The notes under the pieces are model-generated. The model made no database searches. It was not told the DNA's origin and saw only the letters and a list, made by a program, of their open reading frames with translations. The position numbers and the translations under genes are program-made. Below, in pieces: positions 27,662 through 32,044 of a DNA stretch of 64,000 bases. This DNA comes from Torulaspora globosa (Eukaryota > Ascomycota > Saccharomycetes > Saccharomycetales > Saccharomycetaceae), in assembly GCF_014133895.1 (NCBI RefSeq), contig NC_050728.1, forward strand, positions 620,001-684,000, read 5' to 3'. Each line of letters opens with the position of its first letter. Within the stretch, counting starts at the first letter, position 1.

Positions 27662-29611
27662 TTAGTTTAGACCAACCAGCTGATGTACAAATTGCTTTAT
27701 GGGACCGATTGCGCTCAAGATGACCATGAGAGCACCGTAGAAGACAAACGACAGTGAGCTGATTGCCGCAGCTCTTCTGTCTACGCCGAGAAGATAAGCG
27801 GTGGCTATGGCACCGCAGTTGCAGCCGAGGGCTAAGCCTCGGGTAACGTAGTCCTCTTCGGGGACTCTTATGAAATCGAGCATGCGACCTCCTGTGAGGG
27901 CTCCGACGACGCCACTCATGACAGTGGTCACTGCCATCACTGTCTGGTCGCCGCCTAAGTTGGATATCATGGGCCCGCCGAGAGCCAAGGTGACACTTCT
28001 ACCGGCGAAACCGATCGATCGTAGGGACGAGATGCCTATGTTGTAGCATATTAGAGGGTAGAGCAGTAACGAAGCGGCTGTAAAAAGCAGGATTGGCGGT
28101 ACCATGCTGAAGAAGTGTTTCTTCAGGTCCTTGCGATATGTGTACATGGGCAGAGATAGTCCGACAATCGAGACGTCCATGCAGCTGGAGAATATGTCGC
28201 CCGCTCCAGGCCACTGATGGTAGCCGTAACTAGGGTCGAAAAGGTGAAGGTAGGTGCGACCTGTCTTGTAGCTCTTGAGTTCACGTAGGAAGAAGACCAC
28301 TTCTCTGTGTTTAATCATCACTGAAATCAGCATTACAAGCCACGTTAGCGCCACAGAGCAGATGACCGGATGAGCAAGCCTCTTCAGCCTGGGGCGATTC
28401 ACAATGAAGGGGGAATCCGTTATGATCATGAACATGCAGACGGCGGTGAAGAAGTGGAAGGGCGTAGTGTACCACTGGAAATAGTAAGTGAAAATGGTTG
28501 CGAAAAACCCTAGAGCGTAGAGAACATGGTGCAGATGTGCATCCCACATATTGATCGAAAAGTGAAAGTCGATCTGTCTCGAATACTGCCGCGTGATGGC
28601 CCGTTGGCATATACTTCTGCTGTCAGACGAGTCCACAGTCACGGCGGAGCTGGTCTCAATATTCTTATGGCGTGCCGGCTGCAGCCTCTGCAGCAAACCG
28701 GTCCCGCCATGGCGGATATTGGGCGGCGCGGAAGCAGTCGCTCTTCTTGAGGACCCTATCTGTATCATATCTTCCGCCTCGTTGATGTTATCATCATCGT
28801 GATGACTATATTCGTGCTTTGGCAGCATCTCCGAACCCAGACTTGAGGTCGCTCTCGAGTTGACATATGACAGTGACAAACCAGAGTTGCTGGCAAGGTT
28901 AACCAATGGATCGTGGAAGTCTAGTCCATTGGAATCACCAAAAAAAACTTGAACACTGGAACTATCCCGATTTTCTTCGCCAGCAGGAGCCTCTTTATCG
29001 ATTGCGACGTTGCTGCTAGAGATGCTGTCGTTCCCCTTGTATTGCGAAGCTGGAGCAAACCGTGATCCATTTTCCATACCATTGTGCAGCTCTTCCTGCC
29101 GAACAAACACAGACCTCAACCTCAGAGATCCCGTCACCTTCTGTCCCAGTACTGTAATGTATGCAAGCAGTACAAAAGCCACCAGATACCCAATCAAGAA
29201 AACCGCGACTATCAGCAGAGCTTCCTTGCATGAGATCCAGGGACTCAACGGCAAAGTTACAAAAGCTGGCGTAAAAAAAACGTTCATCCATCTCAACGCC
29301 CAGCTCAGCGGAACATCAATCACGCCAAGATAGAACTCCACGTAGGGCTTCTTAAATGCAGCCAGCACACTCATGAATGCGAAATTGATCAACATTACCG
29401 CGACACTTGCCGGAAACGTCACTTTGATACAATTCTTGATTAGTCGATCCACGCCGTACAATAAACACATAACTAGCAGGACTCCAATGGGCACAAGCAC
29501 ATATGTGCGGAACAATTCCTTTCGCCGTAGGATGACGAATTGCTTGAATATCGACCAATGTCTTCTGACACCTTCTTTCCATCCAAAACGTCTCGACTTT
29601 CCTCGTTCCAT
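27662..29611 (-). CDS. LrgA-LrgB (CidA/CidB) type membrane protein
   Basis: 649 residues. No S. cerevisiae counterpart is known to me. The C-terminal half (about 350-649) has the look of the LrgB/CidB family: several membrane segments, a glycine-rich repeat-like core (SVTLALGGPMISNLGGDQTV, then MSGVVGALTGGRMLDFIRVP) and GLALGCNCGAIATAYLLGVD with the late SFVFYGALMVILSAIGP helix. The N-terminal part (about 20-170) has four or five hydrophobic segments like LrgA/CidA, and a polar linker (about 175-335) joins the halves. Fused LrgA-LrgB proteins exist in plants as the plastid glycolate/glycerate transporter PLGG1, and related proteins occur in fungi; transport of a small organic acid is therefore a guess. 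It is an insertion relative to the HAL5-MRP49-TPK order of S. cerevisiae and borders the WHO/FBA1 relic. Confidence 0.75.
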   Translation of the reverse strand: MERGKSRRFGWKEGVRRHWSIFKQFVILRRKELFRTYVLVPIGVLLVMCLLYGVDRLIKNCIKVTFPASVAVMLINFAFMSVLAAFKKPYVEFYLGVIDVPLSWALRWMNVFFTPAFVTLPLSPWISCKEALLIVAVFLIGYLVAFVLLAYITVLGQKVTGSLRLRSVFVRQEELHNGMENGSRFAPASQYKGNDSISSSNVAIDKEAPAGEENRDSSSVQVFFGDSNGLDFHDPLVNLASNSGLSLSYVNSRATSSLGSEMLPKHEYSHHDDDNINEAEDMIQIGSSRRATASAPPNIRHGGTGLLQRLQPARHKNIETSSAVTVDSSDSRSICQRAITRQYSRQIDFHFSINMWDAHLHHVLYALGFFATIFTYYFQWYTTPFHFFTAVCMFMIITDSPFIVNRPRLKRLAHPVICSVALTWLVMLISVMIKHREVVFFLRELKSYKTGRTYLHLFDPSYGYHQWPGAGDIFSSCMDVSIVGLSLPMYTYRKDLKKHFFSMVPPILLFTAASLLLYPLICYNIGISSLRSIGFAGRSVTLALGGPMISNLGGDQTVMAVTTVMSGVVGALTGGRMLDFIRVPEEDYVTRGLALGCNCGAIATAYLLGVDRRAAAISSLSFVFYGALMVILSAIGPIKQFVHQLVGLN

Positions 29612-29788
29612 ATCTTGTAGCTTAACTAGATCTTTTCATATCACGTCGGCTCGAAAGAAGATCTCTATTCAGTTGCATGGTGGGTTGTCCTTATTATATT
29701 GCTCCGTTGACGTATTTTTATGCCTGACGCAGGTCATGAACTTGGCGAAAACTAAAGAATTCGATAAAAGTAAACTTATTCAGTCATG

Positions 29789-29813
29789 ATAAAACTCACT
29801 TACAAAGTGTTGG
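29789..29813 (-). repeat. 25-bp direct repeat, copy 1 (FBA1 3' end)
   Basis: Identical over 25 bp to 31366-31390, in the same orientation. On the minus strand it encodes the last codons (..NTL stop) of FBA1 plus 11 bp of 3' flank. Start-to-start distance is 1577 bp. Confidence 0.95.
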
Positions 29814-29910
29814 TGGTTCTGAAGTCTTCCAAGGCAACGGCAATTCTCTTGGACATGGTCTTTTCGCCCTCTCTGACCCAGACTCTTGGGTCAAAGTACT
29901 TCTTGTTGGG
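29800..29910 (-). pseudogene. FBA1: FBA1 3'-terminal fragment (36 codons of class II aldolase)
   Basis: On the minus strand, an open frame from 29910 to the stop at 29802-29800 encodes PNKKYFDPRVWVREGEKTM and ends in FRTTNTL, the C-terminus of fungal fructose-1,6-bisphosphate aldolase (S. cerevisiae: PNKKFFDPRVWVREGEKTM and FRTTNTL). Only about the last tenth of the gene is here; the catalytic part is absent from the window. The frame is intact, with no stop or shift. Its boundary at PNKK is abrupt and the sequence just upstream is of different origin. This is what is left of a target gene after insertion of a WHO homing element, which replaces the FBA1 3' end and leaves the old end downstream. 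Confidence 0.93.
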
Positions 29911-29913
29911 TAC

Positions 29914-30952
29914 GTCACTTGAAGAGGGATTCCTCCAGTGGATTGCTCTACACCGGCCAATAACCCGTCGAACAACTTCCCTTTTCTTGCCTCTGAGCCT
30001 TTTTGGATTTAGATCTCTGGGCTTGAAGACCGACCGTTACTGCAACGCATATGAGTGAGCGAATAAGAAACCCAACAAGCCCTGCATATCCTGTCAAAAA
30101 CATCCCCCAACCGGGAAACCTTGAGCCACTGTGATGTCGTTTCTGTACGGCATGATAAGCAACTCCTTTTGGAATCCGGTCTTGATTCAAGTCTTTTCGT
30201 AATCAATTCGGCATTTGCACATACAATCTGTTCATCCGTGACAAAAGTCCGGTTAGAGGTACCCGACAGTACCTTTACAACCTGGGATAATTTCAAACCT
30301 GAACTTGCCAAAATTGAATGTGCCATCTTGTTGTTCTTCCGGATCATCTTCAAAGCTCCAAGACTGGTATCTCTATCGATATAGGTGTAAAATCATCTTA
30401 GAGGAGCCAGACGTCTTTTGTTAACGTACCGTAAATCATCTGCCTCACATTGCCAGTTGAAGCATCTCCCTCGCTCCGCAAGACCATTGGCTTTACGTGG
30501 TCCATAATCTTCGACGTCTCGGTTGTCAGAGGGAATCGTCTGCATTTTCCTTGATGATCTTGATAATTCGACCATCCGTTGTTCGATTATCAGCCAGCTG
30601 AGACACGTTAACCTGCCTGAAACCTCCACGCCCTTTCTTGGCTATCTGGATCTTCTGTTTCGTCCTCAAAATCAGTTGTTGTCTCTTGGAGCATGTCATT
30701 TCGATTATGCCCCAAGGTTTCCCCACCGAGGGACCTTGCAAGTGTGCGTAGTGGTTGGTCTTTTGTCGAACTGTGACCAAACCATGGTCACCTCTTAACA
30801 CAGCCTCGACTTTTGCCGCACTTCCATCAGATGTAAGAACTTCATCGCCAACTTTGATGTTTTCAATTGGCACGGTCCCAGTTGGCTAGGAAAACCTTTG
30901 TGCCTGGTACCAAACCACCAATGAACCGTGGATCACCGCTGATGCTCTGCAT
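29914..30952 (-). pseudogene. Decayed WHO/HO-type homing endonuclease gene
   Basis: Pieces in three frames line up in order with HO and the VMA1 intein. (1) From ATG 30952, with a TATA box at 30974-30979, a 29-codon frame ends at TGA 30863; it includes VPGTKVFLAN, like intein block A (KGTNVLMADG). (2) After a frameshift near 30875, VPIENIKVGDEVLTSDGSAA continues to about 30526 and includes VRQKTNHYAH, MTCSKRQQLILRT (block B) and TDGRIIKI. (3) After another shift, CFNWQCEADDLRYVNKR parallels the HO stretch YFNFDIEVRDLDYL; the same frame, interrupted by TGA at 30393-30395, continues to an HO-type zinc finger with CLSCR, QW and ICRACW, ending at 30009. No LAGLIDADG core is present, so an internal deletion removed the nuclease. 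The block B histidine position is occupied by Gln. It lies directly before the FBA1 fragment. Confidence 0.88.
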
Positions 30953-30973
30953 TGAGACGAAATCAGTCGCTCT

Positions 30974-30979
30974 TTTATA
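30974..30979 (-). promoter_or_regulatory. TATA box of the WHO-type pseudogene
   Basis: TATAAA on the minus strand within GTGTATAAAAGAGCG, only 22 bp before the pseudogene ATG at 30952. It suggests that the element once carried its own promoter; the actual start site cannot be read from sequence. Confidence 0.45.
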
Positions 30980-31365
30980 CACTACAGGGATGGTGCAATG
31001 TAGTGGTACGTTGTTTCAAAATTGGTGCAGAGCTTGAGCATCAAATGGTTTCAAACGATCAAACAATGCCATAAGATCGTGAGGGGCAGATTGTCAGGTC
31101 ATTTGGCCTAAATGACCGACTATCTCTTACTTTGATGGAAGAAGCGAGGGATCCAAATAAGCCTAGATCGTTTTGCAACATCTAATGCGGAAGCGACCTA
31201 TGACTGTGCTCGCCAAGGCGTTTGGGATTGAATTTGGATCGTTGCCAAGACAAAGCTCAGAAAGCCATGAGTCTTTACCCGAACATGCTCAACTGACAAG
31301 CCTTAAAGCTTGCATTTCAATCACTTGTCGCTTCATTGACAGTTTACTTAAGCTATTCATTTGCC

Positions 31366-31390
31366 ATAAAACTCACTTACAAAGTGTTGG
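31366..31390 (-). repeat. 25-bp direct repeat, copy 2 (FBA1 3' tip)
   Basis: Same 25 bp as 29789-29813, with the FBA1 stop codon at 31379-31377. Upstream of it the aldolase coding sequence is not recognisable (the frame reads CGFANTL instead of DFRTTNTL), so this is the last trace of an upstream FBA1 copy or of the end the element brought in. Confidence 0.9.
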
Positions 31391-31648
31391 CAAAACCGCA
31401 GCTTGCAGCTGGCTTTGACCGAAGGACGTACAATTCAACGCTTGTCGAAGAATATCTATAGCCAGATGATGCCAGTAATGGGCAATTGATTAATCCCAGG
31501 CTGCTATATCGCTATAGAGACTAACTAACGAGTCAATGTCCTCATGGCATGGTTCTTTTTAATCGCTTTAATGAATGCCCATCGCATCTCATGTTATGTG
31601 CTTGCCGTATTTACAGGTTGCTTGAAGTCGTAGAAGGCTCCATTTGTC

Positions 31649-32044
31649 TCAAACTTTCACCAAAGATTCTTCGGGTACGGGCTCATGTTCCACTTTCTCC
31701 AGGAATTCCTTCATTATTATGTCGTCTGTCTTATTCCTCATATCGATGTGCTTGATTACCTTGTCCTCGTTGGACACTATCTCTAAGGTACAGGGAACGC
31801 CGGCGAATTTTGTGTTCTCATTCTTGATTCTTATTACGTCGATCCTGAAATTTGGGTTGTAGAATTGCAGTGTTGGAAGGTACTCACGCCAAAACTTCCT
31901 GGCTCCCATGTGTCCGTGATGGTTTTCCACTTGGAATGTTAATTTGACTCCCGAGTACTTGGTGGCATCGAGCAGAATTTGGGCTTGCTTCGTTGTGGAG
32001 CTTATTTTGTTCAAGAACTTCAGTTGCTTCGCTACACTTGACAT
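31649..32044 (-). CDS. MRP49: MRP49, mitochondrial ribosomal protein mL61
   Basis: 131 residues (S. cerevisiae 137). Large-subunit mitochondrial ribosomal protein with the thioredoxin-like L51/S25/CI-B8 fold. The order of segments matches the family: a basic N-terminus (VAKQLKFLNKISS), then VKLTFQVENHHGHMGARKFW, REYLPTLQFYNPNFRIDV and VPCTLEIVSNEDKVI. ATG at 32044. Same strand as the TPK gene, with 189 bp between them. Orthologue of YKL167C. Confidence 0.93.
   Translation of the reverse strand: MSSVAKQLKFLNKISSTTKQAQILLDATKYSGVKLTFQVENHHGHMGARKFWREYLPTLQFYNPNFRIDVIRIKNENTKFAGVPCTLEIVSNEDKVIKHIDMRNKTDDIIMKEFLEKVEHEPVPEESLVKV

Follow-up and report, generated by a model that had tools for sequence, protein, structure and literature searches.

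The window, a stretch of 64,000 nucleotides of Torulaspora globosa DNA (C2:620001-684000 of a genome of 9.28 Mb in eight contigs), harbors a dispersed copy of the WHO10 family with an L51/S25-domain gene on its left and an LrgB-like gene on its right. Taken jointly, the observations reported here probably mean that this is a dead WHO10-family copy situated away from FBA1 and that WHO10 has spread by way of DNA break repair. The dispersal of WHO10 in T. globosa has already been published, and the route by which it enters sites other than FBA1 is called unclear in the parts consulted of that paper (Coughlan et al., 2020; PMC7282813).

Structure of the Relic

The element is a broken WHO gene on the minus strand (31390-29789), spread in translation over three frames (Table 1). 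The blocks still present are PGTKVFLANW (within 30937-30866), TVPIENIKVGDEVLTSDGS and TCSKRQQLILRT (both within 30885-30529), CFNWQCEADDLRYV (within 30641-30396), a Cys-rich remnant with the motifs CLSC and CRAC in the frame 30392-30012, and an FBA1 tail with its stop (29931-29800). In the profile search, the Hint region was matched by PF05203 at 30541-30873 (E 4.5e-17; score 63.2 bits, cut-off 32.1), and the intact T. globosa WHO10 protein P0001 matches the Hint-region piece at 75% over 110 aa and the zinc-finger remnant at 73% over 80 aa; the match of these blocks to WHO proteins is far above chance. No LAGLIDADG-type nuclease domain was found in the window copy: PF05204 (Hom_end) had no match in the window and 14 elsewhere in the genome. 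At the junction of the core deletion, the copy L013 has 787 bp more than the window copy. Because PF05204 is not matched and the core is deleted, the window copy was classified as a WHO10 relic and not as a working element, and it can no longer make the nuclease.

These results agree with most of what the initial annotation had read from the letters alone, namely HO/intein-like blocks spread over three minus-strand frames (translation, PF05203 match), a degenerate WHO element with a 3' piece of FBA1 (PF05203 and P0001 matches, in-frame tail, placement in WHO10) and a lost nuclease core (absence of PF05204 from the window, deletion junction). Some of its details need correction. The 36 intact FBA1 codons do form an in-frame tail, but the homology begins about seven codons earlier and 43 codons are read; the C-terminal zinc finger stands as a remnant by its match to P0001, while Pfam GATA stays under its cut-off there (E 0.0015; 18.5 bits against 26.8). 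The end coordinates chosen in that annotation fall on the two copies of a 25-bp direct repeat (31390-31366 and 29813-29789), and homology to other copies extends beyond the repeat, on the left to 31543 (in one copy only) and on the right to 29754.

Table 1. Features of the WHO10 relic and its host genes, in window coordinates.
Feature	Coordinates	Strand	Basis
Left host gene, L51/S25/CI-B8 domain	31649..32044	-	profile match; stop at 31649
Left flank common with the copy at C1:941-943 kb	31409..31543	-	genome search
FBA1 end and start of FBA1 3' UTR; left copy of 25-bp direct repeat	31366..31390	-	
Spacer upstream of WHO10, resembling spacers before WHO sequences in the FBA1 cluster	30940..31365	-	
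Start of Hint region (GDPRFIGGLVPGTKVFLANW), separate frame	30866..30937	-	
Hint region, 119 open codons, stop after IIKENADDSL	30529..30885	-	PF05203
Frame containing CFNWQCEADDLRYV	30396..30641	-	translation
Junction of deleted nuclease core, shared with the C1:941 kb copy	30350..30362	-	
Linker and zinc-finger remnant	30012..30347	-	P0001 match; GATA below cut-off
78 open codons, zinc-finger end through FBA1 C-terminus, and FBA1 stop	29800..30036	-	
FBA1 tail, codons 318-360 and stop	29800..29931	-	
FBA1 3' UTR, up to last base matching native FBA1	29754..29799	-	
Right copy of 25-bp direct repeat	29789..29813	-	
Right host gene, LrgB-like	27662..29611	-	profile match; start at 29611

Family Placement and Distribution in the Genome

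The profile search and tree that the initial annotation had proposed as a check were carried out, and the tree places the window copy in WHO10, outside HO and VDE. The protein tree (plain LG model) has 30 rows, made up of 25 of the 36 proteins collected, the other 11 being left out, together with HO, VDE and three dead-gene fragments. In it, the window piece, whose row fills 19% of the columns, pairs with the relic at C1:941 kb (83/87) inside a WHO10 set of seven rows (98/98). The 28 WHO rows split from the one HO row and the one VDE row at 100/99, the tree program giving a long-branch warning for HO, VDE and P0025. The single HO row lies outside the WHO rows, and the host genes of the window copy are other than VMA1, in which VDE resides. 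As for the description of WHO as the family from which HO arose, it is the model of the published work (PMC7282813, in the parts consulted), and the present tree shows only that the WHO rows stand apart from HO and VDE.

The genome has a single aldolase-family match, FBA1, at C7:163198-164220. Insertion at FBA1, as originally supposed, is contradicted by this position, the window copy being on C2; as expected of WHO10, the copy lies away from FBA1 and has an FBA1 fragment immediately downstream. The left host gene is presumably MRP49-like. About 15 places in the genome, that of FBA1 included, have WHO10 or FBA1-tail sequence (45 matches, grouped by hand), and at three of them the WHO10 frame is intact (614, 622, and 625 aa). 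Judging from gene order, we take these three genes to be those at positions given as CMC4, RKM5, and MIN6 in strain CBS764. At the other extreme are very short WHO10 remnants at C4:36330-36422 (93 bp) and C8:565511-565568 (58 bp), and at C4:169642-169748 there is a 107-bp piece, 96% identical to the FBA1 downstream region, with no WHO10 match at that place. A second, different broken WHO gene was noted downstream of FBA1 (L012 2252-3528; C7:159.7-161.0 kb), the N-terminal frame of which groups with P0016 (HG537_0D01700) in the protein tree.

Shared Lesions and Exchange Between Copies

Nine damaged and three intact copies were aligned, and all lesion calls rest on this one alignment. A 1-bp frameshift at 420 is common to the window, C1:941 kb and FBA1-locus copies, and two further 1-bp frameshifts, at 565 and 581, are common to the window and C1:941 kb copies alone, as is the junction of the core deletion; in the FBA1-locus copy the core was lost by another deletion, at about 626-1037. 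In the 200 bases left of the junction, the window and C1:941 kb copies are identical at 197 of 200, the next best copy reaching 182 of 199. Further lesions are common to L011 and L018, to L011, L016 and L018, to L010, L011 and L018, and to L010 and the window copy. L010, L011, L016, and L018 all come from contig C2, and these four could have arisen by local duplication. The gap at position 18, present in L018 and the window copy, is doubtful, as are those in common with L019. These gaps and duplicate sets (553, 581, and pieces of the core gap) were excluded from a nesting check on seven common lesions, which found five overlapping but non-nested pairs of sets; four of the five depend on one 2-bp gap of L010 and the window copy. 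Such a pattern of lesions among dead copies was not met in the sections consulted of the WHO literature (PMC7282813 and the commentary PMC7282806).

The existence of three intact copies is what would be expected if each copy had been inserted intact by its own nuclease and had then decayed singly, an explanation that we regard as unlikely given that frameshifts are common to copies on different contigs and that two copies have the identical core-deletion junction. The common lesions could be explained by gene conversion after insertion as well as by movement of dead copies.

Recombination among the WHO10 copies is indicated by a neighbor-compatibility test. With L017 and L019 excluded, 10 copies contributed 47 two-letter sites free of gaps; the observed value was 0.34, the mean over shuffled data was 0.44, and none of 2000 shuffles was as low. 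The nearest copy of the window copy also varies by segment: in trees of separate segments it groups with the FBA1-locus copy for 60-420 (95/94) and with the C1 copy for 421-612 (100/99), and in the C-terminal segment, analyzed with the FBA1-locus copy excluded, the C1 and C3 copies group together (100/100), the window copy falling in no supported group. The compatibility test and the differing segment trees together imply that copies, dead ones included, have exchanged or passed on sequence. An alternative is that the window and C1:941 kb copies are the two halves of one segmental duplication. Besides the deletion junction, these copies have in common about 135 bp of left flank, since 31543-31409 was found by the genome search at two places only, the window and C1:943035-943170 (91%). 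The host genes, however, differ on both sides, and the C-terminal part of the C1 copy is closer to the C3 copy (96% identity) than to the window copy (86%), which makes such a duplication improbable.

The FBA1 Tail and Its Junction with the Zinc-Finger End

The FBA1 tail was found by the genome search at 10 places including FBA1 itself, that is at nine places away from it, the window among these (an eleventh row, of 26 bp, falls inside one of the 10). The tail therefore travels with the element. In the window, the zinc-finger end is in frame with the FBA1 codons and their stop. In L009, L011, L013, L014, L015, and L016, the gene and the tail are separated by WHO10 pieces in inverted orientation, about 66-186 bp long, whereas the window copy has none. 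In three of these, L009, L013, and L016, GNP and a stop come after the zinc-finger end in the FBA1 frame, ahead of the inverted piece, and we infer from this that the direct in-frame fusion of zinc finger and FBA1 is the older state; the alternative, that an inverted piece was lost through the short repeats beside it, is possible.

That the 78 codons are open up to the FBA1 stop might suggest a kept and expressed fusion peptide of zinc finger and aldolase tail; this is very improbable, the sole Met of the frame sitting inside the FBA1 tail and the 43 codons differing from native FBA1 by seven synonymous and six replacement changes, which lend no support to selection on the tail. A functional tail revealed by unusual conservation was likewise considered and rejected, because its conservation is not exceptional beside that of the non-coding spacer: with gaps and the FBA1-locus copy excluded, mean pairwise identity is 93.4% for the tail (36 pairs), 92.7% for the spacer (3 pairs only), 87.2% for the N part of WHO10 (45) and 88.0% for its C part (21). 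Constant ends and a target-site duplication are not claimed either, the right ends differing between copies. Homing into an FBA1 gene since lost from the window place, which FBA1 3' sequence at both ends of the element could recall, is scarcely credible when the tail occurs at nine places away from FBA1.

Two observations concern neighboring sequence. In L011 (2787-4370), a host frame of 527 aa enters the left end of the element and stops in FBA1-derived sequence (ending STLCK), so the 3' end of the host gene may have been replaced. L013 (6218-6621) and L011 (6672-7074) have about 400 bp in common, around and to the right of the FBA1 tail, and a frame starting at the right end of this segment in L013 we take to be like the end of a Ty3-type integrase.

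Captured Fragments and a Possible Route of Spread

The insertion at C1:1517 kb contains about 400 bp (92%) of the 3' end of the LrgB-like gene of the window (C1:1515926-1516322), for which the genome search found no third place, as well as an 85-bp piece (88%) of a gene beside the C2:709 kb copy and a 167-bp piece (97%) of C2:465681. Matches to WHO10 itself or to the region downstream of FBA1 were not counted as fragments, nor were about 150 bp in common with the C2:80 kb relic. Other WHO10 places are found within 3 kb of two of the three sources, and the third is 179 kb from any; a post hoc binomial gives P 0.0004 for a limit of 3 kb and P 0.0009 for 5 kb, and at a limit of 1 kb one source of three counts (P 0.015). 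A genome search with the 0.86 kb lying upstream of the C2:709 kb copy found no second place. The traced fragments support the proposal, made in the parts consulted of the original description, that fragments in WHO10 insertions are fossils of earlier sites (PMC7282813).

Shared lesions, mixed ancestry of segments and traced fragments lead to a testable account, break repair with ectopic copying. A putative WHO10 nuclease, made elsewhere and acting in trans, would cut a target site; repair of the cut would use whichever WHO10 copy was available as template, whether dead or intact, and could also take up nearby fragments, as filler from other broken loci; fold-back would give inverted pieces, and later ectopic recombination would mix the copies. 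WHO10 would in this way spread by break repair instead of by a transposase. At yeast breaks, fold-back inverted duplications and distant templated insertions are described, with local inversions mostly of 5-34 bp in the sections consulted (PMC11724301), and the inverted WHO10 pieces found here are longer than these.

More tentatively, the dead WHO10 copies may constitute a dispersed donor store, in which a nuclease encoded by an intact copy would cut in trans and dead copies would be the repair templates, WHO10 evolving as a recombining network where nuclease-less copies also spread; we hold this to be possible but rather doubtful. If true, it would resemble in outline HO with its silent cassettes before domestication, and break repair with ectopic copying would connect the origin of HO switching with a system already using spare copies as templates.

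Comparison with Known Systems

The window copy has the tree position, the site outside FBA1 and the downstream FBA1 fragment of the published T. globosa WHO10 genes, and foreign gene fragments in insertions are a feature of the family both here and in the published account; unlike the WHO10 genes in the parts of it consulted, the window copy is dead, without a nuclease core, intergenic and with its zinc-finger end in frame with the FBA1 tail (PMC7282813). With the WHO homing elements at FBA1 it has in common the Hint region and the FBA1 3' fragment, and its Cys-rich remnant would correspond to their zinc finger, but it is not beside FBA1, and its FBA1 piece is of 43 codons, the fragment in T. 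delbrueckii WHO elements being of about 400 bp (PMC7282813, same parts).

HO, which in the published model derives from the WHO family, is likewise composed of an intein-like region and a C-terminal zinc finger, whereas VDE is without a zinc finger (PMC7282813, as far as consulted). The genome has an open HO-like frame at C4:102002-103390 and an open VDE intein frame at C3:1001696-1003060. The window copy resembles HO in having an intein-like region and a zinc-finger remnant, yet the HO-like gene of this genome falls on a long branch outside the WHO rows; with VDE it has in common the homology of the Hint region, and the VDE of this genome, on C3 in a VMA1-like frame, also falls outside the WHO rows.
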